A DNA stretch of 64,000 nt from Ruminococcaceae bacterium OttesenSCG-928-A16 (GTDB taxonomy: Bacteria; Bacillota; Clostridia; Oscillospirales; Ruminococcaceae), in assembly GCA_030267215.1 (NCBI GenBank), contig JAJDJP010000006.1:1-64000 (forward strand), read 5' to 3'. The position numbers were made by a program, and so were the translations under genes. The notes under the pieces are model-generated. The model saw only the letters and a program-made list of their open reading frames with translations. It did not search any database and was not told where the DNA came from. Positions within the stretch are counted from its first letter, which is position 1, and the number at the start of each line of letters is the position of its first letter. This document shows positions 2,053-18,168 of this stretch, piece by piece.

Positions 2053-2158
2053 TCCTCAATAGCTCAGTCGGTAGGACAAGCGTAGCGCGTTACACCGGAA
2101 AACTGAGCGGACAGACACAAAAGTTATCTGCCGAATAATTGACGCAGGTACGATATAT
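2053..2158 (+). repeat. 106-bp unit A: tRNA-Asn 5' half joined to element end (attL-like)
   Basis: The unit opens with the first 22 bases of tRNA-Asn (TCCTCAATAGCTCAGTCGG plus TAG) and then leaves the tRNA exactly at TAG (2072-2074). It continues into GACAAGCGTAGCGCGTTAC and related sequence. The next 106 bases are a roughly 90% identical second copy. The break point equals the start of the tRNA homology at the right end of the island, so this reads as a left attachment junction from an integration event. Confidence 0.7.
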
Positions 2159-2264
2159 TCCTCAATAGCTCAGTCGGTAGGACAAGCGTAACGCATTACA
2201 CCGGAAAACTGAGCGGATAGACACAAAAGTTACCTGCTAAATAAATAACGCAGGTACGACATAA
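2159..2264 (+). repeat. 106-bp unit B: attL of the CRISPR-bearing element
   Basis: Second tandem copy of the tRNA 5' half plus element arm, with TAG at 2178-2180. The arm GACAAGCGTAACGCATTAC, then ACCGG, is the near-perfect reverse complement of the sequence left of TAG in attR (19909-19931). Joining the two arms around TAG gives a nearly palindromic site, the form expected of a serine-integrase attP. The unit also holds ACCTGC/GCAGGT arms near its end. Confidence 0.72.
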
Positions 2265-2340
2265 TCCTCAATAGCTCAGTCGGTAGAGCATGCGGCTGTT
2301 AACCGCAGGGTCGTTGGTTCGAGTCCAACTTGGGGAGCCA
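2265..2340 (+). tRNA. tRNA-Asn (anticodon GTT)
   Basis: A complete 76-base gene with encoded CCA. The acceptor stem is TCCTCAA/TTGGGGA, the D arm GCTCAGTCGGTAGAGC, the anticodon arm TGCGG-CTGTTAA-CCGCA with GTT at 2298-2300, and the T arm has GGTTCGAGTCC. It lies 84 bases inside the inferred left crossover, so the element appears to carry an intact copy while the chromosomal gene is split. Confidence 0.95.
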
Positions 2341-2342
2341 GA

Positions 2343-2380
2343 AAAACCCGTTGAATCGTAAGATTTGACGGGTTTTCTTC
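2343..2380 (+). terminator. Intrinsic terminator after tRNA-Asn
   Basis: AAAACCCGT pairs with ACGGGTTTT across a 16-base loop, and a T-rich tail (TTTTCTTCT) follows directly after the tRNA. Confidence 0.65.
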
Positions 2381-2460
2381 TGTGCTCTCTAGTACTGTAC
2401 GCATGCAGGGCCTTTGTGCTACCAAATGAGTGTGTAGAGGAAAAGGCGCATTAAAATGCC
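2377..2460. repeat. Post-tRNA direct repeat, left copy
   Basis: This 84-base segment (CTCTCTAGTACTGTAC ... AAAATGCC) recurs, diverged, at 20107-20188 beyond the right tRNA fragment. The pair shows that the tRNA-Asn flank was duplicated along with the element ends. The stretch from here to the Nudix gene (about 2483-2776) shows no convincing gene. Confidence 0.65.
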
Positions 2461-2482
2461 TCGGCCAGCAAGCTGGCCGAGG
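2459..2482. repeat. Perfect GC-rich hairpin
   Basis: CCTCGGCCAGC and GCTGGCCGAGG form an 11-bp perfect stem with an AA loop. No T-run follows, so its role as a terminator or protein site is unknown. Confidence 0.5.
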
Positions 2483-2776
2483 TCACAATAAAAGCTTGTT
2501 ATATGGTGAAAGACATGGGATAATGAGCGCAACAGATAAGAGCGAGTGATGTCTCCTTGAAGCTTGGCTTGTCCTATCATGGGCGATTCGGCTCACAGCC
2601 AGCCAGGGGTTTTGGTGCTCTGATTTTTTCAGGCAACTACCAATAGCTGGAAGCCAAGGGGAAAATCACGAACCCACTGCTGGCGAAGTCGATCGTAAAA
2701 TGTGAAAAGCCATCTTTACTATCCTTGGTGAGCATGGGCTGTGTGGAGTGATGTTACCGAAGAAAGAGGTTTGACT

Positions 2777-3259
2777 ATGAGTATTAGAAATGCGACTAAA
2801 GCAATTATTTTACATGACAACAAGATTCTGCTCAACAAGTGCCATGCTCCTGATATTGGTGGCTACTTTGCTTTACCAGGCGGTGGACAAAACCAATATG
2901 AGACAATGGAAGAAGCTGTTATTAGAGAGTGTTTGGAAGAAACAGGGTATACTGTTGTTCCCGATGCCTTTGTCGCGCTATATGAGGAAATCTACGTACG
3001 TGAATCCGTCAGAGAAAAGTATCCTGACTATTCACATAAGGTTCTACACATTTTCCGGTGTTCGATAGTCAACGCAAAAAAGGGTATTCCATTAGAATGG
3101 GATTCTTGGCAGTTAGATTGTGTTTGGATAGATTTGGATAAGGTTGATTCTACTAATCTTCTACCATCGATAGTTAGAGAAAATCTGAACCATTTGATTC
3201 ATTCTGAGATTCCATTGTATTTAGGCTCGCACTTTATTGATTTTGAAAAAACCGTTTAA
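2777..3259 (+). CDS. Nudix hydrolase
   Basis: 160 residues with a full Nudix box near residues 34-56 (GGGQNQYETMEEAVIRECLE, then ETG), fitting Gx5Ex7REUxEExGU. The family cleaves nucleoside diphosphates linked to another group, and the substrate here is unknown. ATG at 2777 is chosen over the longer frame from 2741 because AGAGG precedes it and homology begins there. The gene is more AT-rich than the chromosomal genes and is the first gene inside the island, so it is probably cargo. A link to CRISPR nucleotide signalling is conceivable but unsupported. Confidence 0.8.
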   Translation: MSIRNATKAIILHDNKILLNKCHAPDIGGYFALPGGGQNQYETMEEAVIRECLEETGYTVVPDAFVALYEEIYVRESVREKYPDYSHKVLHIFRCSIVNAKKGIPLEWDSWQLDCVWIDLDKVDSTNLLPSIVRENLNHLIHSEIPLYLGSHFIDFEKTV

Positions 3260-3466
3260 TCGGATATTGCTCTTTTGATTTTCATAACCACTCTCGAAAC
3301 TTCACAAAAAAACACACCTATGACGAGTCTTTGAAGTAACGTTGGAGTTTTAAAGAAACAATTAAAATCAAAAATTCGGAAAGGTATTGGCTTATTCCAC
3401 CCGATGGTGTAAAATTTTGATGAATCGATATTTTTGGAGTTTTGATGACTGTAAGGAGACGGAAAT

Positions 3467-4690
3467 ATGGGCGAATTTAATTTAGAAGCATATCAATTGG
3501 TTATTCAGCTACAGCAATTAACCCCGATGATTCATTTCCAACACAATGAGTATGGCGTAACACCGCGTGCCAGTGAGGTAAAGCCAAAGTTGGACCGGTT
3601 TATTATCGCCCAGTTTGGCGGCATTGAAAAACTACGTAAAGAGCATGGTAATTGGATTGATCGTGAGCACGGTTCGCTGAAATACAAAATGACTTTTGTT
3701 AGGGAGAATAGTTCCCAATCAGTAGATATTCCATACATGCTATTTTACGCCAACATGGGTGAAGAGCGAAAAAGAAACCCAATCAAAATGCTTGTCGGAG
3801 ATTGCAAAATGACCATATTGTGTGCTGTGCCATCTTTGAAAGATTATATTGAAGAGAGTATTTCTACTTTTTTTGTCACCCATACATTTGGTATGATGCA
3901 GGGAAAGGGTTTTGGAGGATATCTTCCCCAAAACTATCAGCCCTCTGAAAAAGATATTTGCGCGGCAATCAAAAAGGTATATCAATGCAAATCTGTTTAC
4001 AGTTTGGATACCTTGCCGCCAATTATAGTATCAAAAGGACAAAACCATCTGGGGAAATGGATAACCCCGCGAAATGTATTTGATGATATTATAAAGCCGT
4101 TTCATAGCATAATGAAGTCAGGAGTGAACTTTGGGGTATATGAACGCTCTTTTCTGTTCCAACATTTTCACAAAAACCCGAATATCCAGTACGGCAATGA
4201 CAAAGCTTTCGTAAAAGCCAAGGGTATTGCTCCTGTGGTGTATAAAATCAGAAACTTAGCCAATGGTGAGCACAAACGTAAGTACGAAAACTTTAAATAT
4301 GTGCGCGCATTGCTCGGGGTTACAGGAAAGGTTGAATACATTCAAGGCCTTGATGCAAATGACAAGCCGCTGAAAAATAGTAAGGGTAAAGTGATCAAAG
4401 AGATAATAACCATCAAGGGGATGAGCGGGATTGAGAGATTTGCTTCCCCTGTTAGATACAGAATAATTGGCCACAAGCTATATATATTTGCCACACCCAT
4501 CGAAGATGAAATTCATGGTGCACCTTTTCAATTTCAATCCAGCATAGGAACAGAGAGTATTTCTGTGCCAGATGCCCATGATTTTGATATTGATACTTTT
4601 CTGTCCGACTTTATAACCCATATAAATAATGATCCCGTAGCTCGGAGAGCTGCACGATTCAGTAATGAAAAATTCTTGGAGGTGAAATAA
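3467..4690 (+). CDS. cmr1: Cmr1-like RAMP protein of the type III-B effector
   Basis: 407 residues. The N-terminus has the RAMP start typical of Cmr1 (QQLTPMIHFQ ... ASEVKPKLDRFI, residues 15-46). Cmr1 caps the 3' side of the crRNA in the Cmr complex. AAGGAG sits 8 bases before ATG, and the stop TAA abuts the ATG of cas10, so this is the first gene of a tightly packed operon. The remainder is poorly conserved and I assign it mainly from the N-terminal motif and gene order. The gene is AT-rich compared with chromosomal neighbours. Confidence 0.75.
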   Translation: MGEFNLEAYQLVIQLQQLTPMIHFQHNEYGVTPRASEVKPKLDRFIIAQFGGIEKLRKEHGNWIDREHGSLKYKMTFVRENSSQSVDIPYMLFYANMGEERKRNPIKMLVGDCKMTILCAVPSLKDYIEESISTFFVTHTFGMMQGKGFGGYLPQNYQPSEKDICAAIKKVYQCKSVYSLDTLPPIIVSKGQNHLGKWITPRNVFDDIIKPFHSIMKSGVNFGVYERSFLFQHFHKNPNIQYGNDKAFVKAKGIAPVVYKIRNLANGEHKRKYENFKYVRALLGVTGKVEYIQGLDANDKPLKNSKGKVIKEIITIKGMSGIERFASPVRYRIIGHKLYIFATPIEDEIHGAPFQFQSSIGTESISVPDAHDFDIDTFLSDFITHINNDPVARRAARFSNEKFLEVK

Positions 4691-6175
4691 ATGCCTGCCA
4701 CCTACATAGGAATAACCATCGGCCCCATATATGATACCATTCGCCTGTCCAGCACACCTGCGGCGTTGTGGGCGGCAAGTTATCTGTATTCACACATAGC
4801 AAAGCGGATTTGTGAGGAAACAGTTTCCCAAATCAAGGATGGAGACAAAGCGGCAATCATTACGCCTTATTTTTGCGGCAATACGGCCAAGATGGATGAG
4901 GGGGTTGGGCTATTCCACGACCGCATCATTTTTGAAACAGATAGGCCAAGCATAGATATGGGTATAATTCAAAACATTTTCGGTTTGGTGAAAGATGAGA
5001 TAGCACAACTGCTGAATGACCAAACCGGGTGGATCCAGAGCTATTTGCAGTTTCACGCGGTGGCGTTTGAAAGTGATGATAATCCTATTTTAGATTCGTC
5101 CCCATATCTTGATGCGATTGAACTGGCAAAGTCTTTCCCAGATAAAACGGCAAATAACCCGTTGGCAGAGTTGTTTGAAAGTGCAGATAAAAATACGCGT
5201 ATCCGTATGCAGATTAAGGACGGACTGCATCTTTCTTCATGGCCGCTTTTCTCTGGCGAACCGCAATTTCAGAGCCGTTTGCCAGATATGGAATATATTG
5301 TTGGAAAAAAATCGGAGACAAAGCGTTGTTTGCAAAACAGAGAAAAACTATATGAAAAGCCGTATTCCTACTACGCGATCGTGCAGTCTGATGGAGATAA
5401 GTTTGGTGAGTACATTGCCAGTCACGAGCCCTTGGAAGCTTCTCGGAAATGCTTGGATTTTTGCTTAGCGGCGGCAGAAATGATACAAGGTTATGGCGGT
5501 GTAACTATTTATGCCGGTGGTGATGACTTGTTATTTCTTGCCCCTTTGTGGGAGAAGCCAAATGAACCAGACGTGGGAAATCGTAGAAATATTTTGGAGT
5601 TTTTGTTGGAAGTTAAAGAGAAATTTTGTGATGTGTTTGGCAGTGATGGGCCAACTATCTCATTTGGCGTGGCGGTTCGCTTTTATAAATATCCGCTGTA
5701 CGAAGCGTTTGACGAAGCCTATAGCCTATTGTTTCGTAAGGCAAAGGCAACCCGCAACTCGTTGGCACTTTCGCTTCGCAAACACAGCGGGCAAAACGCA
5801 GAGTTTGTTTTGGAACAATTCGATGATAGTGAAATTTCCCGGATACTCTCGGGGATGATTGTAAAAAGAAAAGATGGGGATTTTCTGCAATCAACAGCAA
5901 CCAAGCTATGGCAGTTTCGGCCACTGTTTGCGCAAGCTCTGTCAATGAATGATAACGCTGTAAAAAATGTGTTCGAAAACATATTTGATAGTGAGATCCA
6001 CACGAAGTATCAAAGTGAATTGGATGAGGTACGGGAACTTCTTCTTTGCCTTAACGATCAAAAGACACCAGAGGAAAGGCTGCAAGAGCTGGATGCTTTA
6101 TTGAGATTTGTGAAGTTTTTCAGCGAAAAAGGAAGGGAGGATGACGAAGGTGGACTTAATGAGGCTGAGGGTTGA
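4691..6175 (+). CDS. cas10: Cas10 (Cmr2) lacking the HD nuclease domain
   Basis: 494 residues, well short of classical Cmr2. The protein opens directly with the first palm-type segment (residues 5-40, ALWAASYLYSHIAKRI) and has no N-terminal HD motif. The cyclase palm is intact, with SDGDKFGEY at about 233-241 and IYAGGDDLLF at about 273-282, so nucleotide second-messenger synthesis is expected. Without HD it should lack the ssDNase, which makes ancillary effectors the main output. It is known that CorA-associated type III-B systems use such Cas10 proteins and that one was shown to make SAM-AMP; that this one does so is inference. It overlaps the start of cmr3. Confidence 0.92.
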   Translation: MPATYIGITIGPIYDTIRLSSTPAALWAASYLYSHIAKRICEETVSQIKDGDKAAIITPYFCGNTAKMDEGVGLFHDRIIFETDRPSIDMGIIQNIFGLVKDEIAQLLNDQTGWIQSYLQFHAVAFESDDNPILDSSPYLDAIELAKSFPDKTANNPLAELFESADKNTRIRMQIKDGLHLSSWPLFSGEPQFQSRLPDMEYIVGKKSETKRCLQNREKLYEKPYSYYAIVQSDGDKFGEYIASHEPLEASRKCLDFCLAAAEMIQGYGGVTIYAGGDDLLFLAPLWEKPNEPDVGNRRNILEFLLEVKEKFCDVFGSDGPTISFGVAVRFYKYPLYEAFDEAYSLLFRKAKATRNSLALSLRKHSGQNAEFVLEQFDDSEISRILSGMIVKRKDGDFLQSTATKLWQFRPLFAQALSMNDNAVKNVFENIFDSEIHTKYQSELDEVRELLLCLNDQKTPEERLQELDALLRFVKFFSEKGREDDEGGLNEAEG

Positions 6176-7184
6176 ACTAACACCCCCTGAACCGTATTTT
6201 TTGGGCGGCGAACGTATCTTTGAAATTGGCGATGGCAACAAGCATTATTTTATCCGTTCGCTGCAAACACCGCCCCAAACAACATTGTTTGGCATTCTGC
6301 GGTACCTTGGTATTTCAAACCCTTCGCCGGACATGTCTTTCGATGCGGACAATATTGGCAAAAATAGTTTTCATCTTTTAAATGCCACTTGTGACACGCC
6401 TGCATTTGGTAAAATTCAAGGGATATCGCCGTTGTATTTAGCCGACAGTTCCGATTTTTACTATATCCCTACGCCGTTTGATCATAAAGTGGGCGAAGAA
6501 AACCGGGATGGACTGGAATATGAGCCGTTTACAGACTATATTGAAGATTTTTTAAAAACGAAAAAATACCCGCGCGATTATACAGCAAAGTATGGGGTGG
6601 CAGACAGCTGGACGTGTATTGCACCCGGGCCAAACTACAAAAAAACGTATAAGAATCTGTTTGGAAGAGATGTTCGCACAAGAATTGATAAGATCAACAC
6701 GAAAAAAGCGTTTGTTAAAAAAGAACACGTCTACCTAAAAAAAGGTTTTTCGTTTGTGTTCTTTGCCAGCGTTGCCGATGATTTTAATTTTGTTACAGAA
6801 AGGTTTGTTCAACCTGGATTTTTAGCAAAGGTTGAAAAGGCCGGCGCAGAACCAATGATACCGGGGGATTTGCTACAACCCGGGATGATATATGCTCAGT
6901 CGGATATTTATTTGAGCAGCGAGGAGGCAAACCGGCTTTACAGTATGTGTTCTTTCACATGCGTGCAGACAAAAGAGTTTCGGGGCAGAACAACAAACCC
7001 GGAAGCAAAAACTGTTGGAGAGCGGTTTAAGCGGTATGAACAAACAGCCACCCTTATTCAAAGTGGGAGTGTATTTATTCCGGCAGAGGGACAAAAAGAA
7101 AATGCTGTGGAAATACTAACGGGCAATGCCCATGCAAGAATTGCGGGTTTCAATCATATTGTTACAGGGGGAACGGCGTTATGA
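6159..7184 (+). CDS. cmr3: Cmr3, type III-B RAMP protein
   Basis: About 341 residues. The start VELTPPEPYFLGGE and the QTPPQTTLFGILRYLG segment (about residues 30-50) are typical of Cmr3, which contacts Cas10 and the crRNA 5' handle. Two starts are possible. ATG at 6141 lies right against a GGGAGG, while ATG at 6159 has AAGGTGG at normal spacing and gives the family-like N-terminus, so I use 6159. The gene overlaps cas10 upstream and cmr4 by 4 bases downstream, suggesting translational coupling. Confidence 0.88.
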   Translation: MRLRVELTPPEPYFLGGERIFEIGDGNKHYFIRSLQTPPQTTLFGILRYLGISNPSPDMSFDADNIGKNSFHLLNATCDTPAFGKIQGISPLYLADSSDFYYIPTPFDHKVGEENRDGLEYEPFTDYIEDFLKTKKYPRDYTAKYGVADSWTCIAPGPNYKKTYKNLFGRDVRTRIDKINTKKAFVKKEHVYLKKGFSFVFFASVADDFNFVTERFVQPGFLAKVEKAGAEPMIPGDLLQPGMIYAQSDIYLSSEEANRLYSMCSFTCVQTKEFRGRTTNPEAKTVGERFKRYEQTATLIQSGSVFIPAEGQKENAVEILTGNAHARIAGFNHIVTGGTAL

Positions 7185-7987
7185 AATATATATTCAAAAT
7201 GAAGTGTGTTACCAATATGCATGTTGGCAGTGGTGAAGAAAACTACAGTATCGTCGATAATGAGGTTCAAAAGGATGTTATATTGTCGGATGTTCCGGCA
7301 ATTCATTCGTCCGGTGTAAAGGGTGCGTTAAAGGAACATTATAAAACAGTTGTAAAGATGCCTTATGAGGAAATTCTTCGCATTTTTGGCGACGAGGAGC
7401 AAACGGAAGAAAAAGGCATAAGGGTGAAGCAGAGCAAACCCGGAGCCTATACGTTTTTTGGCGCCAAGCTTGTTGCCCGTCCGCTGAGGGTATCTGACGG
7501 AGATAAGCCTTATTTGCTTGCCACCGGAAACGACATATTACGTGATTTTTCTGATTTTCTTGCAGGATTGGGGTTAGAGGAGTTTTTCCAATTTGAAACC
7601 GATATTGCCGCAACAAATGGCAGTTACTTTGTTGTTACCGATGGTGCGACAGAACTGGAAGGGCATGTGGTGCAGCAACAACCTGCCGTTGAAGGCGTAG
7701 AAAAGATAATTGGAACACCGTATGCTGTTGCCAATTCCCTAAGGGATTTTAGCTTGCCGGTGATAGCCCGCAATGTTTTGGATGAGCACGGAAAAAGCAA
7801 AAACCTGTGGTATGAGGAAGTAGTTCCACACCAGAGCATTTTCTATTTTGTAATTCTAACGCCAGGCGATGAAGAGATTGCCTTGCCGTTGCACAACGAA
7901 ACCATACAGTTTGGCGGCAATGCATCCATTGGGCAGGGGTATGCAAAAATAACACAGGTATACCCCTCGAAGGAGGCAGTAGAATGA
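7181..7987 (+). CDS. cmr4: Cmr4, target-RNA-cleaving backbone subunit
   Basis: 268 residues. The N-terminus matches the Cmr4 RAMP fold (NMHVGSGEENYSIVDNEVQK), with Asp27 in the VDNEVQ loop as the likely slicer residue by analogy to the loop aspartate of characterised Cmr4 proteins. IHSSGVKGAL (about 41-50) and the C-terminal GGNASIGQGYAK glycine-rich loop are also typical. Several copies form the helical filament that cuts bound RNA every six bases. ATGA overlaps with both neighbours place it mid-operon. Confidence 0.92.
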   Translation: MKYIFKMKCVTNMHVGSGEENYSIVDNEVQKDVILSDVPAIHSSGVKGALKEHYKTVVKMPYEEILRIFGDEEQTEEKGIRVKQSKPGAYTFFGAKLVARPLRVSDGDKPYLLATGNDILRDFSDFLAGLGLEEFFQFETDIAATNGSYFVVTDGATELEGHVVQQQPAVEGVEKIIGTPYAVANSLRDFSLPVIARNVLDEHGKSKNLWYEEVVPHQSIFYFVILTPGDEEIALPLHNETIQFGGNASIGQGYAKITQVYPSKEAVE

Positions 7988-8370
7988 ATAAGCGCAAAGT
8001 AGACAGCCTTATTCCGGAAGCGTACTGCGTTTTAAAGGAAGTGGGGATAGCCGATAAGAGCGGAAAAATTGACAAAGGCTTGCGTGGGCAAATTTCTTCG
8101 TTTGGGGCATCGGTATCCACCGGTAGCCTGCTTGCAGCCATTTCTTTTTTCAGTGCGCGAGGCGGGGCGGCAGTTCCGCGTGAGCTTTTGATGCAGGCCA
8201 TTGGGAAGCTTATTCAACAGGATGATTTATTTGCTTATGTACAAAAAGCAGGGGAACGCCGGGCAAAGGAGGAAATAATTAACGCCGCAATTGCGCTGAA
8301 GCTGGCAATGAATCTTTATGAATTATGGGAGGGAGAGCGATATGCAAAATCTGAACTATCTCCTGAATAA
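7984..8370 (+). CDS. cmr5: Cmr5, small helical subunit
   Basis: 128 residues, predicted mostly alpha-helical, located between cmr4 and cmr6 as in other Cmr operons. Cmr5 forms the minor filament of the complex. The start overlaps the cmr4 stop (ATGA), and the gene overlaps the cmr6 start by about 29 bases. The assignment rests on size, composition and position more than on a strong motif. Confidence 0.8.
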   Translation: MNKRKVDSLIPEAYCVLKEVGIADKSGKIDKGLRGQISSFGASVSTGSLLAAISFFSARGGAAVPRELLMQAIGKLIQQDDLFAYVQKAGERRAKEEIINAAIALKLAMNLYELWEGERYAKSELSPE

Positions 8371-9250
8371 TCATTATTATGCAGCTTTTACCTACAGACA
8401 TTTTGCCCAGTGCAACCTGGCACTGGTGCAAAGCAAATTTATGCCAGATAAGCAGGTTGTCCCCCATACCCCGCACTCGTTTGCGCTACAAACCACCTAT
8501 CCTGGCTTGTTGCTTGGGCTGGGCGGAACGCATCAAGCAGGAACGAATATTGAAGGAAACAAAGAGGACGGCACAGAAATAAAACTGGGGTTTACGCTGG
8601 ACTATGTAACAGGGCTTCCTATTATTCCTGGCAGCACGGTGAAGGGTGTTTTACGAAGCGCGTTTGAAAAATACCGCGATGACGCAATTGCCGCAGATTT
8701 ATACGCGGAAATGAAAGATATTTTTGGAGGCGATAACAATACAGGGGATGATACACAGCGTGGTAAATGTATTTTTTACGATGCTATTCCGGTTGGGGCC
8801 GGAAAGGATGGCCGCTTGCTTGGCCTGGATAACATTACGCCGCACCCTAGCCCGCTGAAGGATCCCATTCCCCTTACCATGCTCAAGGTTATTCCGGGTG
8901 TAACCTATCTTTTCCGTTTTGATTTGCTGCGCTGCAAAAATGCAGAACGAGTAAAAGAGTTGTTTCGCGAAATTTTGCTGGGCCTTGGCATTGGTGCAAA
9001 AACCAATGTGGGGTTTGGTGTGCTGGCTATGGTTGCACAGCAGCCAGAATATAGAATGCTTATACAGGAAGGGGTGGTACAAAGCAACAGCAGTGCCGCT
9101 TCTTCCCGGGTGGCGCGCCAAAACCCTGCTGCCGGGGTGTGCCAGCACCCAAATTGCGGCAGGCCAGCCCCACAAAGGCCGGATGGCTCTTATCATAGGT
9201 TTTGCCAGCCCCACTATATTGAGTTTATGGGAAAGAAAAGGAGCAAATGA
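8342..9250 (+). CDS. cmr6: Cmr6 RAMP protein with a C-terminal Cys/His tail
   Basis: About 302 residues from ATG 8342, which follows GGGAGGGAG; the longer frame from 8318 lacks a ribosome site. GLGGTHQAGTN (about 61-71), PGSTVKGVLRSAFEK (about 101-115) and the glycine loop GLGIGAKTNVGFG (about 218-230) are RAMP/Cmr6 signatures. After a low-complexity linker the last 35 residues hold CQHPNCGRP...YHRFCQPHY, a C-x4-C-x14-C-x2-H pattern that looks zinc-binding and is not part of the RAMP core. The stop overlaps the next gene's ATG (ATGA). Confidence 0.88.
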   Translation: MQNLNYLLNNHYYAAFTYRHFAQCNLALVQSKFMPDKQVVPHTPHSFALQTTYPGLLLGLGGTHQAGTNIEGNKEDGTEIKLGFTLDYVTGLPIIPGSTVKGVLRSAFEKYRDDAIAADLYAEMKDIFGGDNNTGDDTQRGKCIFYDAIPVGAGKDGRLLGLDNITPHPSPLKDPIPLTMLKVIPGVTYLFRFDLLRCKNAERVKELFREILLGLGIGAKTNVGFGVLAMVAQQPEYRMLIQEGVVQSNSSAASSRVARQNPAAGVCQHPNCGRPAPQRPDGSYHRFCQPHYIEFMGKKRSK

Positions 9251-10863
9251 AAATGAAGCAGCCATTCAGCTATCACACCTTTTTGTTTCCGTTTGTGTGG
9301 AAAACCTCAGGAAACACCACGATATATCAACTGATAGATCGGCTGCCGAAAGAGCACTGGCAGGAGGAAGTTTACGATGTACAAGACGGTGCTTTGCAAA
9401 AAAATGCAGAGGAGTACACGTTGAACTACGCAATGTTTCAATATTTCACCCAGCCTGCCAGAAAACTGGTTTTTGGGCAGGGAGAAGATGGTTATATGCG
9501 GTTGTTTTCGTATTGCCGTGGAGGCAAGCCCTGGGGCAGCAGGGCGGATGAAACCCAAATTGGCAGCTATGAGATAACAAAAGGGGCAGATGTTTTTAAG
9601 CTTGTAATCCACGGAATTAAATTGAATATTTACGATACAGGCACTGCTATTCTTAGCTTTGAGCTGGAAAACTGGGATCACCGCGACAGAGACAGCGTTA
9701 ATGCCATTAACGAATATGGAAGGCGGGTTTGGTTCCCGTTTCTTACACCTGGGCGCACCGGGCTAACGGCAGACAAAATTGAAATAAAAGCGGAAGATGC
9801 TGTTATTGCTTCCGAGGACTTTCTTCAAGAATCAATTGGTTTACAAAACAACACGCACGGTGAAGAGCATTCACCGATATCACCCACCCACATTATGGCT
9901 CCTATCCAGAATTTGCTTAACTGTGCAGTGGCCGAGAATGCCCCCCCAGATGCACTGAGAGGGAACCAGGACCGGTTTGTTATAAAACCACTGGTAGACG
10001 ACAGGATGTTTGTTTGCTGCCTTGTTTGTGATGACAAAGCCCTGGAGGGACTTGCACAGTGGGATGCCGATGCGGCGGAATATGTATACCTGAGCAATTG
10101 CGAAAAAGATGACCATACTTTGTCGGATAATCTTTATAAACTGGTATATATCGAAAATTCTGTTAGCTGTGCAAGCAGGCGAATGAAAAAGGAGCTTTTG
10201 CGCAAAAGCGTGTACGACCGCTGGATTGATTACGGAACATTATACGGTATAACACATCATTCGTTTGTTTGCGTAACAGGGGCTGATGCAGCCGGAGAGA
10301 GTGGCCTAGGGGATGCTGTATACAATCCATTTTTAACGCAGTATGTGGAAATGGCCAAAATTGCTCTTAACTCAAGAGGAATGGTTCTGGCGCTCTCGGC
10401 CGAGGCCGCAAACGTTGCCAGGGAGGTTGCCTCAAACAATTCAAAAGGGCCGCAGAAGATTCAGGAGCTACAGGAAAGATATGTACAGGCGCAAAGCAAA
10501 ATGATGCTTTTTGAGGTTACGGTGCAAGAGCAAGGCGTAGAACTTTTTAACATGCTGAGCGAACAGCTTTATTTGCCAGAAAACAAGGCTGCTTTGGACG
10601 ATATGATAGATGACCTGCGTGATGTAGCAAACACAATCTACGACAGAATAGAACAGCAAAACGATTCTGCGCTGAACACCGCCATGGGCTTGCTGACCGT
10701 ATTTGGCCTGCTATTCGCCTGGTGGCAAAGCTTAAGCCCCCTGTTGAGTGAAGCGAGCCCGGTGTATCCGTATTTGGCTTGTATAACAAACGGTCTGGGG
10801 TTTATTACGCTGGTATTTTGCTTGGGCGCATGGATATGGCTGCGGAAGCAAAAGAAGAAATGA
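9247..10863 (+). CDS. CorA-like membrane protein, putative type III-B CRISPR effector
   Basis: 538 residues. A large cytosolic region (1-475) ends in a long helical stretch (about 395-475) and is followed by two closely spaced membrane segments at about 477-500 and 505-532 and a basic RKQKKK tail. This long-helix-then-two-TM topology matches CorA channels, but the GMN selectivity motif of Mg transporters is absent. The gene overlaps cmr6 by 4 bases and precedes cas6, so it is an integral part of the operon. CorA-like proteins next to HD-less Cmr2 are known SAM-AMP-gated effectors. Function here is inferred from topology and context, not from sequence identity. No phosphodiesterase or SAM-AMP lyase gene is visible nearby. 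Confidence 0.65.
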   Translation: MKMKQPFSYHTFLFPFVWKTSGNTTIYQLIDRLPKEHWQEEVYDVQDGALQKNAEEYTLNYAMFQYFTQPARKLVFGQGEDGYMRLFSYCRGGKPWGSRADETQIGSYEITKGADVFKLVIHGIKLNIYDTGTAILSFELENWDHRDRDSVNAINEYGRRVWFPFLTPGRTGLTADKIEIKAEDAVIASEDFLQESIGLQNNTHGEEHSPISPTHIMAPIQNLLNCAVAENAPPDALRGNQDRFVIKPLVDDRMFVCCLVCDDKALEGLAQWDADAAEYVYLSNCEKDDHTLSDNLYKLVYIENSVSCASRRMKKELLRKSVYDRWIDYGTLYGITHHSFVCVTGADAAGESGLGDAVYNPFLTQYVEMAKIALNSRGMVLALSAEAANVAREVASNNSKGPQKIQELQERYVQAQSKMMLFEVTVQEQGVELFNMLSEQLYLPENKAALDDMIDDLRDVANTIYDRIEQQNDSALNTAMGLLTVFGLLFAWWQSLSPLLSEASPVYPYLACITNGLGFITLVFCLGAWIWLRKQKKK

Positions 10864-10875
10864 GGGAAGCTGCTG

Positions 10876-11595
10876 ATGAAATCCATCGCCATCACCTTTC
10901 GTTCGAACGCGCTTACCATTCCTATTAATTACCAGCACGGGGTGCAAAGCATGCTGTACAGCGCTTTGCAGGCAGCAGGCGGCCGGGGCGAAGAATGGCA
11001 CGACGGTGGTTTTTATTATGGCCTGCGTCGGTATAAGTTGTTCACCTTCAGCTCTTTGCGAGGCAAAAAAATCATTGCAAACGGCAAAATCACCTTCGAG
11101 AGCCTTATCTATCTGGATGTGCGCGGGGTGCAGGGCGATTTTTGTGATGCACTGCTGGAAGCGCTTGAGAAAAACCCCAAGCTGACGCTATTAGGGGCTC
11201 CGCTTTCTGTTTTAGCGGTGCAATGCAGCACCCCACAAATTCAAACCGGCACAGTGAACATAAAAATGTTGTCTCCTGTCACTGTGCATAAAACAGAGAA
11301 TGAAAAAACGCACTATTACACACCGCTGGACACCGATTTTTCTGAACAGGTGTGTGAGAATTTTCGGCGTAAGTATACAGCGTTTACCGGGCAGGAGCCT
11401 GCTGACAGCATTGTGCTTACGCCGCAGCGGGTGGGAGTGAAGGACAAATATGTAACCACCTTTAAGGGAACCTACATCACTGGCTGGCGTGGCGAATACA
11501 GCCTTTCTGGCCGGCCGGAATATTTGACCTTTCTTTATTATTGCGGCCTGGGGGCGCGAAATTCGGACGGATTTGGAATGTTTGAAATACTATGA
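10876..11595 (+). CDS. cas6: Cas6 crRNA-processing endoribonuclease
   Basis: 239 residues with the C-terminal glycine-rich loop GLGARNSDGFGMFE typical of Cas6, and an N-terminal ferredoxin-like RAMP start with His20 in PINYQHGVQSML. It should cut the repeat transcript to leave the 8-base handle AUUGAUAC seen at the repeat 3' end. The stop overlaps the RT-Cas1 ATG by 4 bases. In some RT-Cas1 systems the Cas6 domain is fused to the N-terminus; here it is separate but translationally coupled. Confidence 0.88.
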   Translation: MKSIAITFRSNALTIPINYQHGVQSMLYSALQAAGGRGEEWHDGGFYYGLRRYKLFTFSSLRGKKIIANGKITFESLIYLDVRGVQGDFCDALLEALEKNPKLTLLGAPLSVLAVQCSTPQIQTGTVNIKMLSPVTVHKTENEKTHYYTPLDTDFSEQVCENFRRKYTAFTGQEPADSIVLTPQRVGVKDKYVTTFKGTYITGWRGEYSLSGRPEYLTFLYYCGLGARNSDGFGMFEIL

Positions 11596-13502
11596 TAGAG
11601 AAGATACTACAACAAGAAAACCTGGAGCTTGCTTGTGAGCATTTGCAGGAAAAGCATGATTCTTGTGGTTTGGATGGAATGCTCTTGTCCGAGCTTGGCG
11701 GTTACCTACAAAACAATATGGACGCCCTTCGGGAGTCGATAATCGGTGGTACTTATTGCCCAGGCCTGGTGCAAGAAGTTGAACTTGTCAGCCCCAAGGG
11801 AAAAATACGGACAATATCCAAGCTAACTTCTGTGGATAGATTGATTTTGCGTGCCATGCATCAAGTGATGTATGCTTGTTTTTCGCCGGTGTTTTCTGAG
11901 TTTAGCCATGCCTATCAAGAGAAAAAAGGTATTATCACAGCGGTACGGCAGGCGGCAAATTATGTGGAGGCGGGATACGCTTATACGGTAGATATAGATA
12001 TAGAAAGCTATTTCGATAATGTTGTCCATTATAAAATGGGGGAGCAGCTAGCAAAATATGGTTTGGATAATGTGACGAACGGTTTAATCCAGCGCTTTCT
12101 TGCATGCAAGGTTGTGCGTGATTTTGAAGTTGTGCCGAAAGAAAAGGGATTGGTGCAAGGGAGCCCTCTCAGTCCACTTTTAAGCAACCTATATCTACAC
12201 GAGGCGGATTTGTTTTTTCAAAACAAGGGTTGGAAGTTCTGCCGATACGCAGATGATATTAAATTGTTTGCCAAAACTTTCGAGGAAGGCCTCGAAAAAT
12301 TCAACTGCACAAAACAGTTTATGGAGAAAGAGTTGCTACTTCAGCTGCACCCGCAAAAAAGCGGTGTGTTTCCCGCAATCGAGCGTACTTACTTGGGCTA
12401 TTGCTTCCACTTGTTTTCCAACGGAAGAATTGAAATTAAGAAGAAAAACAACAAAAATAAGATGAATATTTACAATTGGCGTGCTTCTGCTATTCAGAAG
12501 GTCGGCGGTGAATATCACTTGGTTGCCGATGGAATTCTAACGAGAAAAGACTACAATTTGTTGTTTGAAAATACGGAAAAGAAGATGCATATTCCGGTAA
12601 ACAGCGCAGAGTGTCTAAATTTATATTCCAACATTACTTTTGGGAGTGATTTTTTTCACTTTGCCGCACAAAACAACATCCAATTAAACCTATATAACAA
12701 GCATGGTGAATTTGCAGGTACCTTTATTCCCAAACATCTTTCAGCATCTTCGTCTCTTACTACACAACAGGCTCTGACGTATGCGGATAAGGAAAAACGA
12801 TTGGCAATTGCGAAACAATTTGCTCTTGCCGCCGCCCATAATATCCGCGAGAATATTAAGTATTATATACGCCGCTCCAATAGTGAGCTGCTTCGCTGCT
12901 CTATTGAAGAAATAACTGCAATGCTGCAGGAGGAAAAGGAAGCGGACAGTGTGCCTCAACTGATGCTGATTGAGGGGCGTGTACGTGGCACTTATTACAA
13001 TTGTTTGAACGATATCCTGCCCAATGAAGATTTTCTTTTCGTGAAACGAACGAAGCGACCACCGAAGGATCCAATCAACTCCCTCATAAGTTTTGGAAAT
13101 ACGTTGTTATATCGGCGCGTAGCAAAAGAAATTTATAAGTCTCGATTGGATATTCGCATCGGTTTTCTGCATGCAGCCAACCGACGATATGAAAGTTTGA
13201 ACTTGGATATTTCTGAAATTTTTCGTCCTGTTATTGTAGAGCGCACCATCTTTGCTCTCATCAACAAACATATGCTTAGTGAGAAATCTCATTTTGAGTT
13301 GCTTGATAATGGCGCAGTATTTTTAACGAACGAGGGAAAGAAAATTTTTATCACAGAATTTGAGGAAAAGCTGATGTGCCGACTCAAACAGAAGGGAGGT
13401 TCGACCGCTAGCTATGGCGAACTGATTAAAGTGGAAATACAGAAGCTGACCCGCTATTTTGATAAAGGCGAGCCATATAAGGCATATAAATATTTTTTGT
13501 GA
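11592..13502 (+). CDS. cas1: Reverse transcriptase-Cas1 fusion
   Basis: 636 residues. The N-terminal RT domain spans about 1-300, with VDIDIESYFD (about 133-142), QGSPLSPLLSN (189-199) and CRYADDIKLF (217-226, YADD catalytic box). The C-terminal Cas1 spans about 330-636, with catalytic candidates Glu461 (LIEGRVRG), His527 (FLHAANRRYE) and Asp539/Glu542 (LDISEIFRP). All RT and Cas1 key residues appear intact. Such fusions can integrate spacers from RNA followed by reverse transcription. There is no N-terminal Cas6 domain. It is coupled to cas6 upstream and cas2 downstream. The array content, rich in gene starts, is what an RNA-sampling adaptation module could produce. Confidence 0.95.
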   Translation: MIEKILQQENLELACEHLQEKHDSCGLDGMLLSELGGYLQNNMDALRESIIGGTYCPGLVQEVELVSPKGKIRTISKLTSVDRLILRAMHQVMYACFSPVFSEFSHAYQEKKGIITAVRQAANYVEAGYAYTVDIDIESYFDNVVHYKMGEQLAKYGLDNVTNGLIQRFLACKVVRDFEVVPKEKGLVQGSPLSPLLSNLYLHEADLFFQNKGWKFCRYADDIKLFAKTFEEGLEKFNCTKQFMEKELLLQLHPQKSGVFPAIERTYLGYCFHLFSNGRIEIKKKNNKNKMNIYNWRASAIQKVGGEYHLVADGILTRKDYNLLFENTEKKMHIPVNSAECLNLYSNITFGSDFFHFAAQNNIQLNLYNKHGEFAGTFIPKHLSASSSLTTQQALTYADKEKRLAIAKQFALAAAHNIRENIKYYIRRSNSELLRCSIEEITAMLQEEKEADSVPQLMLIEGRVRGTYYNCLNDILPNEDFLFVKRTKRPPKDPINSLISFGNTLLYRRVAKEIYKSRLDIRIGFLHAANRRYESLNLDISEIFRPVIVERTIFALINKHMLSEKSHFELLDNGAVFLTNEGKKIFITEFEEKLMCRLKQKGGSTASYGELIKVEIQKLTRYFDKGEPYKAYKYFL

Positions 13503-13513
13503 GGTGGGCGGGA

Positions 13514-13777
13514 TTGTTTGTGGTTTTGGCCTACGATGTTGGCGCAAAGCGTGTTTCAAAAGTGATGAAGGCTTGCCGCAGGTATCTTTTTCATGTGCAA
13601 AACTCAGTTTTTGAGGGATCAATTACCGAGGCGCAATTAAAAAAGCTTAAGATAGAGCTGGAGAAAAAAATTGAAAAAGAAACCGACAGCATATGCATAT
13701 ATGAATTTGGCTCTGTTAAATATTCTCGAAAAGAACAGATAGGTGCAGTGGCAGCATATTCCAACATTATCGATTAA
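13514..13777 (+). CDS. cas2: Cas2 adaptation protein
   Basis: About 87 residues from TTG 13514 (MFVVLAYDVG, the usual beta-1 strand with the conserved Asp). GTG at 13499 would add five residues and overlap the RT-Cas1 stop. GAGGTGGG precedes the TTG at good spacing. Cas2 bridges two Cas1 dimers in the integration complex. This is the last cas gene before the leader. Confidence 0.88.
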   Translation: MFVVLAYDVGAKRVSKVMKACRRYLFHVQNSVFEGSITEAQLKKLKIELEKKIEKETDSICIYEFGSVKYSRKEQIGAVAAYSNIID

Positions 13778-13985
13778 AAAAGTCCGTCAATCGCCAACGC
13801 CTTGTTCCATAAGGATTTTTACTATTTTTGAGCAGTTTTTTTGTTTTTAAAAGTATTTTTAAAACCTGTTTTACCATAAAAAACCGTCAGTTCTTGTGGC
13901 CTGACTGTTGCGCTGTTAAAAGCATAGAAATGTCGTATAGTAGGCATTTTTAGCTTGGCTCCAAATTGAGATTGACGGACTTTTT
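13777..13985. repeat. 209-bp segment bounded by 16-bp perfect inverted repeats
   Basis: AAAAAGTCCGTCAATC (13777-13792) and its exact reverse complement (13970-13985) enclose an AT-rich, non-coding 177-base interior. The left arm begins at the last base of the cas2 stop codon. It could be a MITE-like insertion, a long-range RNA hairpin or a leader-binding structure. No target-site duplication is obvious. Confidence 0.6.
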
Positions 13986-14052
13986 ACCCCCAAAACTCTT
14001 GCAAAATCTATCATAAAGCAATATTATATAAATATGGCCGATATTTGCGGCT
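13986..14052 (+). promoter_or_regulatory. CRISPR leader with promoter
   Basis: An AT-rich 67-base leader directly before repeat 1. TTGCAA (13999-14004) and TATTAT (14022-14027) are 17 bases apart, giving a good promoter that would transcribe the array in the plus direction. The degenerate last repeat at the other end supports the same polarity. Confidence 0.65.
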
Positions 14053-14677
14053 CTTTAACCTTCCCCATAGGGAATTGATACAATAAATAACTGTAAAAAC
14101 GAAACGATAAAAAACCTAAACTAATCTTTAACCTTCCCCATAGGGAATTGATACAATAAAAAGGAACATTAGCAAGTTAGTTACAAAAAAAAAAAAAAAT
14201 CTTTAACCTTCCCCATAGGGAATTGATACTTTTTCGATCTCTTTTACGTTCTTCATCTTTTCTTTAACCTTCCCCATAGGGAATTGATACTATACCTTGT
14301 TCGTCTTTTTCATTTTTTATTTCTCCACCTTTAACCTTCCCCATAGGGAATTGATACAATCCTCATAATAATTCTCCTTTTCTTTTAGGGGGGTAAACTT
14401 TAACCTTCCCCATAGGGAATTGATACAAAAACTGTCTTTTTCATTGTCTTTTCTCCTCTTTATTCTTTAACCTTCCCCATAGGGAATTGATACATTTTAC
14501 TCTTTTCATTTTTATCTCCTTAAAGTCTTTAACCTTCCCCATAGGGAATTGATACGGGCGGGACAGTGTAACTGGAGCTACAGGAGCCTCTTCTTTAACC
14601 TTCCCCATAGGGAATTGATACAATCTTTAATCTTGCTTGTTATTTTTTTCATTTCTTTAACCTTCCCCATAGGGAAT
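14053..14677 (+). CRISPR. Type III-B CRISPR array, 10 repeats and 9 spacers
   Basis: 29-base repeats CTTTAACCTTCCCCATAGGG plus AATTGATAC start at 14053, 14126, 14201, 14262, 14329, 14398, 14465, 14527, 14593 and 14655. The last copy is cut to 23 bases. TTCCC-CATA-GGGAA forms a small stem, and ATTGATAC would be the crRNA 5' handle. Spacer lengths are 44, 46, 32, 38, 40, 38, 33, 37 and 33. The reverse complements of spacers 3, 4, 5, 6, 7 and 9 each contain an ATG start, with Shine-Dalgarno in 4-7. Spacer 2 carries a run of 15 A. Spacer 8 reads as internal coding sequence in some frames. Confidence 0.98.
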
Positions 14678-14765
14678 AGTAGGCTGCCCATACGCTGTTT
14701 TTTGCAAGTGGGCCTTTTAAAGCAATGGATGCATTTGCACAAAAAGCACAAAGAAGGATGAACCG

Positions 14766-16025
14766 ATGCTGGAAGCTCTTGTGGAATTCTACGACAAGTC
14801 CCCTTTGGAAAATGTGGTTGGCAGCTTGGCTTTGCGCCCGCAAAAAGTAATATTTATCGGGTCTAACCGCAAACAGATGGAACAGCAGATGCAAAACTAT
14901 CTTGCACTGTTCCGGCAAAAAGGTATTGATGCTGCGCTTACATGCCGCATTATCAATAAAAACAATCTGTCTCAAATTCAAAAAACCATATTTTCGATTA
15001 TTGAAGAAAACCCTCAGTGCGCTGTGGACTTAACTGGCGGCGACGAGCTCTCGTTGGTGGCCGTTGGTACAGCTGGCAATGCCTTGCGAAGCCGTAACAT
15101 CCCGTTTTACAAGGTCAATATCCATACCAGAAAGGTTTTGGAATTTTTTGGTGACGGCATTGCGGACGGCTATGAAGAACCAAGTCTTTCGGTTACTGAA
15201 AACATTATGCTGCACGGCGGTGCGGTTGTTTATGATGAAACGAGAAAATTTTATACTCAGCCGTGGGATATCACCGACGACTTCCGCCGGGATGTGGAGA
15301 AGCTTTGGGCAATATGCAAAGAGGATTGTGTAGGGTGGAACACCCTGGTTTCTGCTTTGTCGGATCGGATAACGCCCAACTCGTTGAAAATTGAAGTATA
15401 TGGCATCCGAGACAAAAAAAGCCCCACTACGTCCGGCGGTAGTGTTCGTTGGGTTCAGCCATGGAACTGGTGCCGGAAATTTTTCAACAAACTGCAGGTG
15501 GCAGGCCTTATTCGGTCTTTTTCTTACGATGACGATGGGTTTTCGTTTCAATGCAAAAATAAACAGGTGCGCCGGTGTTTTACAAAAGCCGGGAATATTT
15601 TGGAGCTTATTACCTTTCTTTTAATGAAGGACCTTACTCGAAAGGGGGGCGCTCCATACTTCCACGATCTTCAAACAGGGGTGGTCATTGATTGGGATGG
15701 TGTTTTGCGCGACGAGGGCGCTGCCGACAAGGACACAGCCAACGAGATGGATGTGCTTGGCATGAATGGATTGATTCCCTACTTTGTTTCTTGCAAAAAT
15801 GGTGAGGTTAGCAATGAGGAACTATACAAGCTAAGCGCTGTGGCCGAGCGCTTTGGCGGCAGCTACGCCAAAAAGATACTGGTGGCCACCTATGTAGACA
15901 AGCGCCGGGAAGCGCTGGAGTATTTCCGGCAGCGGGCGACAGATATGGGAATAGCCTTGATTGAGGGTGCGGATACCATGACAAACCTCGAATTATCGAA
16001 AAAGCTAAAATCTGTTATTACATAG
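14766..16025 (+). CDS. CARF-nuclease effector of the Card1/Can2 (DUF1887) type
   Basis: 419 residues. The N-terminal CARF-like Rossmann domain (about 1-140) has KVIFIGSNRKQM and CAVDLTGGDELSLVA. The C-terminal PD-(D/E)xK domain (about 275-400) has NILELITF (Glu280), NEMDVLGMNG (Glu327/Asp329) and FVSCKNGEVS (Lys344). Family members bind cyclic oligoadenylate, usually cA4, and cut DNA and/or RNA. The gene sits 88 bases after the terminal repeat and reads the same way as the array. An in-frame upstream start is absent, so 14766 is firm; the ribosome site (AAGAAGGA) is modest. Its presence implies that the Cas10 makes cyclic oligoadenylates. Confidence 0.88.
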   Translation: MLEALVEFYDKSPLENVVGSLALRPQKVIFIGSNRKQMEQQMQNYLALFRQKGIDAALTCRIINKNNLSQIQKTIFSIIEENPQCAVDLTGGDELSLVAVGTAGNALRSRNIPFYKVNIHTRKVLEFFGDGIADGYEEPSLSVTENIMLHGGAVVYDETRKFYTQPWDITDDFRRDVEKLWAICKEDCVGWNTLVSALSDRITPNSLKIEVYGIRDKKSPTTSGGSVRWVQPWNWCRKFFNKLQVAGLIRSFSYDDDGFSFQCKNKQVRRCFTKAGNILELITFLLMKDLTRKGGAPYFHDLQTGVVIDWDGVLRDEGAADKDTANEMDVLGMNGLIPYFVSCKNGEVSNEELYKLSAVAERFGGSYAKKILVATYVDKRREALEYFRQRATDMGIALIEGADTMTNLELSKKLKSVIT

Positions 16026-16359
16026 TGAACAAGCAAAGTTGGCCTTGGTGCAGCAAACCAACAACTCCGCCCAAGGGACAGGGCCTTGATTTGTCTTAGG
16101 GGACAATTTTCCTATTAAAGACCAGTTGAAAAGTTGATGGAGGAACGAGTGGTCTGCTGGAAAGAGAGCACCTAAATATAGGAAGAGCCTTGTTTATACT
16201 GAGTTTGCCCTCCATCCGGAGAAGCAAAAGAATCACCAATATTCGGAGGATGGAACTTAACAACAAAAAGAGTGCTTGAGCGGTTGATTAAATCCCCAAG
16301 TAAAAATATTTCCCAAATCGGGAACAATTTGCTATAGGATATGCCTATTTAAAATATAC

Positions 16360-16397
16360 GGCATCTGTGTTATCTTGAACAAAGAACACAGATGCCG
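16360..16397. promoter_or_regulatory. 13-bp inverted repeat before the HTH gene
   Basis: CGGCATCTGTGTT and AACACAGATGCCG pair perfectly over a 12-base loop, 33 bases before the HTH gene start. It could be an attenuator or operator. The rest of 16026-16429 shows no convincing gene. Confidence 0.5.
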
Positions 16398-16429
16398 AAT
16401 CTATTTTAGGAGGCATTTTTATCAGAGAG

Positions 16430-17338
16430 ATGAAGAATGGCAACACCCCACCTTCCATGGCAGAGCTGTTTCTCTTGCCCATGTTCTACCTTTTGCCGCA
16501 GGAGATATTAGATGTAACCAGCTATGCGGACTTTCCCCGCAGCCCTTATCAGGTGCGCGACAGCGACAAGTGGATGGAGGTATACCGGAGCGAACACTTC
16601 CAAAGAATCGTGTTGGACGGCATGGGCAATATGGTTTGGCGACAGCTGGGGATCAAGGCAATGATGGAATCCTATTCCGGCTACTCCCCATTGTGGATAC
16701 TGTGCCGATTGGATGTATGGCTGGGAGCGGCAATCGAAAAAGGATGGAATGTTCGCACGTTGTCCGCAGTGAGTCCCACATTCCAATTTCCTGTGTTTTC
16801 TCTGGCGGAGGCGGACTTTCTGTTCTATCTATTTGTAAAATCTGGCAAATTAGAGTGCCCGGTTGATGAAATCATTGCTATTGTCAAAGAGTACCCAGCC
16901 CATGAGGACTATGACCCTGCATGGAACAGCCGAGGGAAGAGAGATTTTTACCGAAAGTGGTACCATAGCCGTGCGAAAACCAAGGTGGATATGCTTGGGG
17001 ATGGGCTGGACTGGGAGCGGATGGCAAATGTCAGCGAAGATTCCCGGAATCAAATCGACTTAAGGATTGATTGCGAGTATTTTAGGCGTACTTTGTCTTC
17101 GACAGACCAAAAGATATGGGATTTGATGCTGGCGGAGTATACGCAGGAGCAGATTGCGAAGATATTGGGGTTTGCCAACCACACCCCTGTTACAAAACGT
17201 ATTAAGAAGATGCGCGCCGCCTTTTTAGAGTACCAAAAGGAAGAGGATTACGAGGAGCTGCCCCGTGGCCCCAAGGCACAAAACAATTGGGATGAGATGA
17301 CAGCGCTGCTGTTCCCCAAAAAACAATCAAAGAGCTAA
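16430..17338 (+). CDS. Mobile-element HTH protein with sigma-region-4-like C-terminus
   Basis: 302 residues. The C-terminal part (about 218-265) looks like a sigma-70 region 4 helix-turn-helix (TDQKIWDLMLAEYTQEQIAK ... HTPVTKRIKKMRAAF). The N-terminal part is not recognised. Such proteins are common in clostridial conjugative and mobilizable elements. The start is uncertain: AGGAGG lies 15-20 bases before ATG 16430, and a non-ATG start closer to it is possible. A terminator follows at once. Confidence 0.6.
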   Translation: MKNGNTPPSMAELFLLPMFYLLPQEILDVTSYADFPRSPYQVRDSDKWMEVYRSEHFQRIVLDGMGNMVWRQLGIKAMMESYSGYSPLWILCRLDVWLGAAIEKGWNVRTLSAVSPTFQFPVFSLAEADFLFYLFVKSGKLECPVDEIIAIVKEYPAHEDYDPAWNSRGKRDFYRKWYHSRAKTKVDMLGDGLDWERMANVSEDSRNQIDLRIDCEYFRRTLSSTDQKIWDLMLAEYTQEQIAKILGFANHTPVTKRIKKMRAAFLEYQKEEDYEELPRGPKAQNNWDEMTALLFPKKQSKS

Positions 17339-17339
17339 A

Positions 17340-17369
17340 CCTCTTGCCAGCTTTGGCAGGAGGTTTTTG
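17340..17369 (+). terminator. Intrinsic terminator after the HTH gene
   Basis: CCTCTTGCCA pairs with TGGCAGGAGG, followed by TTTTTG, directly after the stop codon. Confidence 0.8.
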
Positions 17370-17479
17370 TTGCCCTGTGCAATTTTGGCATGGGGCTTTT
17401 TTGTGTTCTGGAGAGGTGGTGTGGAAGGTTTTTAGAGAGGTGAGCATATGCACAGAAAGGTAGTTTTTTTGTGCGAGCA

Positions 17480-17565
17480 AGCACTGAATTTGTACGCCAA
17501 ATTCGCCTGCTGGGGGAGAATCCCCCAATCCCCCTGGCCGCTGGCCACACGAAGAAAGGTGAGCA
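17480..17565 (+). other. Candidate oriT region
   Basis: Just before the MobC-like gene are two inverted repeats, GAATTTGTACGCCAAATTC and GGGGGAGAATCCCCC, followed by a CCCCCTGGCCGCTGGCC stretch. Inverted repeats upstream of mobC are the usual place for a transfer origin in Firmicute mobilizable elements. The nick site is not identified, and no relaxase gene is present in the island. Confidence 0.4.
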
Positions 17566-17568
17566 CGA

Positions 17569-17889
17569 ATGTGTGAAAAGAAAACGGAACGCCTGCATTT
17601 AAGGGTGTGCCCCTCGTCCAAAGCAAAATTAGAAAATATGGCAAAACGAGCGGGCATCAGCTTGTCCAAAACAATGGAGCAGTTGATTGAAGAATCGCCC
17701 ATAAGGGAAATGCCGCCGCTAGACTATTTCCATCTTCTGAGCGGGTTGCGCCAGATTGGCACCAATATTAACCAGGTTGCCCATGTGGCCAATTACATGA
17801 AGGATGTTCATTACGCGGAATATATACAAAACTGGCGAGAGTTGCAGCAGATTATCTTGGAAATTCGAAGAAGTGTTGAGCTTCGGTAA
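17569..17889 (+). CDS. mobC: MobC-like relaxosome accessory protein
   Basis: 106 residues. The N-terminus resembles a ribbon-helix-helix DNA-binding region (TERLHLRVCPSSKAKLENMA), and the C-terminal LRQIGTNINQVAHVANYM segment (about 61-78) is the MobC hallmark. MobC helps the relaxase at oriT. AAAGGTGAG precedes the ATG. No relaxase gene follows, so the element is probably mobilizable only in trans, or is decayed. Confidence 0.78.
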   Translation: MCEKKTERLHLRVCPSSKAKLENMAKRAGISLSKTMEQLIEESPIREMPPLDYFHLLSGLRQIGTNINQVAHVANYMKDVHYAEYIQNWRELQQIILEIRRSVELR

Positions 17890-17917
17890 GAATAGTAGCA
17901 GAAGAGAGAGGATATTT

Positions 17918-18097: not shown

Positions 18098-18136
18098 AAC
18101 CCAGTACCCGACTTTTTAGCCGGGTGCTGGGTTTTA
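18096..18136 (+). terminator. Strong intrinsic terminator
   Basis: AAAACCCAGTACCCG and CGGGTGCTGGGTTTT form a 15-position stem with one mismatch and a T-rich end. It separates the mob genes from the recombinase unit. Confidence 0.85.
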
Positions 18137-18168
18137 GCCTATAGAAAAATACGAGGAGAGGTAGTATA

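Follow-up and report, generated by a model that had tools for sequence, protein, structure and literature searches.

The window analysed here is a stretch of 64,000 nucleotides from Ruminococcaceae bacterium OttesenSCG-928-A16. Close to its left end it carries two tandem units of 106 bp each (2053-2158 and 2159-2264), followed directly on the 3' side by an intact tRNA-Asn(GTT) gene at 2265-2340 (ARAGORN; Rfam tRNA RF00005, 68.7 bits). Both units open with the same 22 nt, TCCTCAATAGCTCAGTCGGTAG, and depart from the tRNA sequence directly after TAG (2072-2074 and 2178-2180). The initial annotation had described two 106-bp units broken at TAG before a full tRNA-Asn, all at the same period, and this is confirmed in the sequence. 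Between the two units 10 of 106 positions differ. All 10 fall in the spacers, which are 88% identical, and the 22-nt half is unchanged. The 3' half of the host tRNA-Asn was found at 19933-19988, about 17.7 kb from the 5' half, and when it is joined to the half of unit 2 the result is a complete tRNA-Asn, one base different from the intact copy. The features of the locus, all on the + strand, are these:

1943-1971, +: sigma-70-like promoter TTTACA-17-TAGAAT, presumed to be the host tRNA-Asn promoter (10/12 in a consensus scan, TG before the second hexamer)
2053-2074, +: 5' half of tRNA-Asn left orphaned in unit 1, the outer and older unit; it agrees with the intact tRNA at 22/22 positions and ends at TAG
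2075-2158, +: unit 1 spacer, presumed to be the left end of a related element that came earlier; the unit 1 arm pairs with the right arm at 22/26
2159-2180, +: host tRNA-Asn 5' half, attL of the resident element; complete tRNA-Asn together with 19933-19988
2181-2264, +: resident element, left end, made up of the attP arm (2182-2207) and the spacer; 24/26 inverted repeat with 19906-19931
2265-2340, +: intact tRNA-Asn(GTT), the rescue tRNA, element-borne by position and by comparison with relatives
2377-2460, +: post-tRNA sequence of the element, first copy, 87% repeat with 20107-20188
3467-16025, +: cargo, type III-B CRISPR system with Cmr1, Cas10, Cmr3-6, a CorA-like protein, Cas6, RT-Cas1, Cas2, repeats and a Card1-like protein (Pfam and PADLOC profiles, direct repeats)
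18273-19859, +: large serine recombinase (LSR) of 528 aa, with Pfam Resolvase, Recombinase and zinc ribbon all above cut-offs
19906-19931, +: right attP arm, inverted repeat of 2182-2207
19932-19988, +: attR, TAG core (19932-19934) and host tRNA-Asn 3' part, 97% match to the tRNA 3' part from TAG
20064-20188, +: probable remnant of an older related element, a weak and ambiguous tRNA- or terminator-like piece and then the second post-tRNA copy (20107-20188, 87% repeat)

The resident element, about 17.75 kb long (about 2181 to 19932), interrupts the D-loop of the tRNA-Asn gene and contains the intact tRNA-Asn, which starts 84 bp from the left end. The attP arms are inverted around a very short core, and what the two ends have in common is TAG, 2-3 bp. 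The split tRNA, the inverted arms and the LSR gene together form the arrangement that attL and attR should have if a serine integrase cuts at TAG within the D-loop. Neither junction holds a complete tRNA, the 5' half is at attL and the 3' part at attR, and the gene is not rebuilt. The tRNA-Asn genes of the source genome were counted, as had been proposed, and a second one was not detected in this assembly, which is 78% complete. The post-tRNA repeat claimed for both ends (2377-2460 and 20107-20188) proved to be real. The piece at 20064-20105 had been read as a decayed tRNA; this reading is weaker, since the piece is only weakly tRNA-like and aligns about equally well to the terminator after the intact tRNA.

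The cargo identified in the window is a CRISPR system, and some related LSRs occur in IMG/VR records. Its CRISPR array has 10 repeats (14037-14683), and a Nudix gene also lies between the element ends, beside the type III-B set. A type III-B CRISPR system with an RT-Cas1 fusion, a CorA-like protein and a Card1-like nuclease is here the cargo of a site-specific serine-recombinase element. A close relative of the LSR, or an empty copy of the window's own site, was not found in the genus. It was also possible to observe a perfect 20-nt inverted repeat with a 9-nt loop at 1962-2010, which overlaps the presumed tRNA promoter at its -10 and start.

LSR relatives with 29-47% identity over the full length were gathered from genomes and virus contigs. 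Most of these loci come from MAGs, some of the arrays lie on short contigs, and the left ends of several Asn elements are on separate contigs that could not be joined. For these relatives the cut lies in the D-loop of a tRNA gene for Asn, Val, Ala or Lys. The clades of the LSR tree largely track the tRNA target, Val(CAC), Ala(GGC, CGC), Asn(GTT) and Lys(CTT), and the window LSR is on a long branch close to the groups for Asn and Lys. The Asn, Val and Ala elements bear a whole replacement tRNA just inside the left end, beside the host 5' half. In the Val and Ala clades this tRNA adjoins the LSR gene on the opposite strand, and the host 5' half and a spacer of 31-138 bp (in Val elements often just 31 nt) lie upstream of it. 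The Asn elements have the LSR at the right end, as in the window, and a spacer of 77-88 bp, once 370, while right ends with 3' halves are the sole ends seen in the Lys clade. At locus L059 an attP-like palindrome has its centre about 33 bp from a whole tRNA-Val, which indicates that the joined form of such elements, circle or tandem, keeps the tRNA beside attP.

Two loci were set aside, L052, where an intact tRNA-Val has no 5' half upstream, and G367 C6, where the 3' tRNA-Ala piece begins in the anticodon stem and represents a different kind of integration. Some other tRNA arrangements were seen along the way. A whole tRNA-Asn including CCA apparently lies inside the anticodon loop of a Gln-like tRNA on a virus contig (L119, IMGVR_UViG_3300013947_000465, about 6110-6260). 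A degenerate tRNA-like sequence with anticodon GCT (L099, G002:C55, 349-460), whose upstream sequence resembles the end of the window spacer, may be a relative of the element that has decayed within the same genus. Some Asn and Lys elements have imitations of the tRNA 5' half immediately inside their right end (L047, 11670-11740; L039, 9560-9600; L078, 1394-1500), and these are possibly an alternative patch for the gene, or relics of older insertions.

The clearest evidence that the whole tRNA belongs to the element comes from three relatives. G224 has two tRNA-Asn loci behind rRNA operons, one of them occupied, and when the flanks of the element are joined, the left one up to TAG and the right one after TAG, they equal the unoccupied paralogous locus at 300/300 positions. 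Such an exact empty site is consistent with recombination, as far as it can be read from the sequence, and the element tRNA differs from the host tRNA at 6 positions. G203 and G208 belong to two genera, and their contigs (0.98 and 1.69 Mb) share one left end, one rescue tRNA-Ala and one right end, with the element ends 39.7 kb apart in G203 and 24.5 kb in G208. The host halves differ between the two genomes, but within each genome they complement each other in the acceptor stem. The rescue tRNA-Ala differs from the host gene at 7 positions in G203 and at 10 in G208, and no other full-length close match to the rescue tRNA-Ala(GGC) was found in either genome. By these sequence comparisons the tRNA is demonstrably foreign to its host in G203, G208 and G224. 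The proposal that the element cuts the D-loop and brings a complete tRNA-Asn 84 bases inside its left end agrees both with the anatomy of the locus and with these relatives.

Arrays of 2-6 units occur in the relatives, and many elements have a single unit. The longest is in G446, where six units of 109, 109, 109, 99, 109 and 109 bp precede an intact tRNA-Asn; their spacers are 56-95% identical and of two types, whereas the 22-nt half does not vary among the six. The L067 array consists of five tRNA-Val units, in which half 1 begins GGTCTGT and halves 2-5 begin GGTCGCA; the intact tRNA again begins GGTCTGT, and the last spacer is unlike the other spacers of the array. The arrays of L054, L057 and G1109 also mix spacers. 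At the other end of the element, attR on G446:C232 runs on into the post-tRNA sequence of another element (133/163 positions, score 195 as compared to at most 47 in shuffles), as nesting predicts. The arrays were found by way of the recombinase relatives; a loose automatic search for halves was too noisy. A pattern search for tandem tRNA 5' halves, tuned to the 53-bp period of the Val arrays, which is shorter than that of the window, matched 1 of 394 genomes of the order and none in the reversed control; in the order and IMG/VR together it gave G709 plus two unrelated phage tRNA oddities and nothing else. At loci of G1107 (C34 and C45; L195, L059, L196) and G1109 (L188-L198), tRNA-Val halves are numerous and there is an attP-like junction as well as more than one rescue tRNA, which suggests that several such elements accreted in tandem at a single tRNA locus.

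It is very likely that an integrative LSR element split the tRNA-Asn gene and restored its function with its own tRNA, and that serial nested insertion left the units of the window. The LSR would join attP to the tRNA-Asn D-loop at TAG, probably at the AG dinucleotide, which would split the gene after nucleotide 22, and function would be restored by the complete tRNA gene 84 bp inside the left end. This rescue gene is probably without a promoter of its own, and transcription probably starts at the host tRNA promoter and crosses the orphan 5' half and the left end, after which RNase P would trim the leader from the rescue tRNA transcript. The promoter-like site at 1943-1971 lies upstream of unit 1, and the loci of G224 and G176 follow an rRNA operon. 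As the rescue tRNA holds the same attB, further elements could insert there, and each insertion would add one unit of 5' half and left end upstream, the newest nearest to the intact tRNA. Older element bodies would be displaced to the right, where they may be lost, as has presumably happened in the window. The resident element would then account for unit 2 (2159-2264), and a relative that arrived earlier for unit 1 (2053-2158). The attR of the older element was not found in the window and its body is almost gone. The closeness of the rescue tRNA to attP makes it a potential target on the same molecule, and how the circle avoids self-recombination is a testable question; the close spacing itself may hinder it, which is a guess.

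The units could also have arisen in another way, by a single integration with a rescue tRNA and a later tandem duplication of the 106-bp unit via the repeated 5' halves. The 88% identity of the window spacers would fit this, a 25-bp repeat at the same period would favour slippage, and identical neighbouring units do exist (units 2-3 in L054, 1-2 in L057 and 3-4 in L067), where duplication may have added units. Against it, the differences in the window are confined to the spacer, and the chance of seeing no change in the 22-nt half at the rate of the spacer is 0.06. The 26-nt right arm (19906-19931) matches the arm of unit 2 better than that of unit 1, 92% as compared to 85%, and a second post-tRNA copy lies beyond attR, diverged by about as much (87%) as unit 1 from unit 2 in the spacer; this copy fits serial nested integration and is supportive, not conclusive. 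The arrays of the relatives weigh more, since their mixed spacers and switching halves cannot be produced by copying in place, but can be produced by insertion into the tRNA of a previous element. Local duplication as the sole cause for the whole family is thus already refuted, and as an account of the locus we consider it unlikely. Units without an element, which had been named as a sign of simple local duplication, were seen in one possible case, the tRNA-Lys gene of G709 (L118, G709:C42, 1492-1770), which follows one 5'-half unit with a 19-bp spacer. No recombinase was found in the stretch of adjacent sequence examined, but a 14-bp vestige of the original tRNA-Lys 3' end is present downstream, just before tRNA-Glu, which suggests a deleted element, and the unit looks like a possible scar of it. 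The idea that the replacement tRNA becomes the next target and that units accumulate is best shown by G446, L067 and the nested right end. Serial nested integration, as it had been proposed from the window, therefore stands for the family, where it is well supported by comparison of the arrays, but the two units of the window, taken by themselves, may go back to a local duplication long ago and have diverged since.

Two further explanations leave integration, or its passive traces, aside. If the intact tRNA were the native gene and the upstream units debris of tRNA duplication with no integration involved, the single base between the rescue gene and the reassembled host gene would be easily understood, as would the resemblance of the rescue tRNA terminator to the tRNA-Asn terminator of a congener. 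The halves, however, stop exactly at the inverted repeat that is common to the right end, the missing 3' part lies there, and the corresponding tRNA is foreign in G203, G208 and G224, which makes this explanation extremely improbable. It is also conceivable, but we think quite improbable, that the 5'-half units are not passive scars and are retained for a function, such as a decoy or regulatory RNA. The Asn left spacers do pair with their own host 5' half more strongly than shuffled sequences do in 12/12 units (mean z about -2.2; the 12 units are related and form perhaps five independent groups), and the Asn right ends pair with it at the shuffle level (mean z about +0.1). The number of units ranges from 1 to 6, with a single unit in many elements, and predicted folding of the full leader with the tRNA gave mixed results, the help being clear for G446 and G176 and absent for the window; both points speak against a retained function.

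The pairing may still have a meaning under repeated integration with a rescue tRNA. That it is mere symmetry of the recombinase site was rejected, as several Asn elements pair beyond the symmetric arm and the right ends do not pair; in the Ala elements, the pairing of spacer and half may be just this symmetry. A tentative proposal, towards which we lean slightly less than away from it, is that the arrays are ordered records of the elements that entered, and that the left ends evolved to pair with the orphan 5' half and so spare the folding of the rescue tRNA.

Integration into tRNA genes is known from several systems. The tRNA-gene islands of the Islander type (PMC4383910) are alike in that a tRNA gene is the target and a leftover fragment marks the far end, but in them a partial copy in attP serves to restore the gene at the junction, whereas here the junctions are non-functional and a whole second gene is carried. 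In Dehalococcoides, the parts of the descriptions considered here (PMC2764846, PMC3146451) report repeated site-specific integration at ssrA, with tandem islands and 11 short repeats in strain VS, and in both cases repeated insertion at one RNA gene leaves repeats. Those ssrA repeats, of 19-20 bp each, are scattered across a large region on the downstream side of a single intact ssrA, and the same parts describe neither a replacement gene nor a compact array of element ends. The unit arrays at the element end amount to a countable history of insertion at one site.

The closest parallel is tRNA-dependent lysogeny in actinobacteriophages, where a phage tRNA of matching isotype takes over from the host tRNA that integration has broken (Guerrero-Bustamante and Hatfull 2024, PMC10865867). 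In both systems the broken host tRNA is not rebuilt, the common core is short and the element tRNA is of the same isotype. The actinophages use a tyrosine integrase and cores of 8-17 bp, the window family a serine recombinase and a core of 2-3 bp in the D-loop. The phage tRNA lies elsewhere in the phage genome and has its own promoter (shown for Fionnbharth), whereas here the rescue tRNA has a fixed place at the left end with no evident promoter. Unlike in the phages, there are natural arrays from repeated integration, and the cargo identified in the window is a CRISPR system. No report of rescue tRNAs of serine recombinases was found in the open-licence papers searched, and the combination of a serine integrase, a crossover in the D-loop, a rescue tRNA whose place at attL is fixed and whose transcription probably starts at the host promoter, and compact arrays at attL, which was not found in that literature, is new here. 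It extends tRNA-dependent integration from the tyrosine integrases of actinophages to a serine-recombinase family in Clostridia and to several tRNA isotypes, with natural cases in which a mobile element from another lineage provides the sole gene detected for a tRNA isoacceptor. The authors of the actinophage study suspected a second integration into the tRNA of an element and asked how widespread the phenomenon is (PMC10865867), and the arrays give natural support to their guess that a rescue tRNA turns into the next target.
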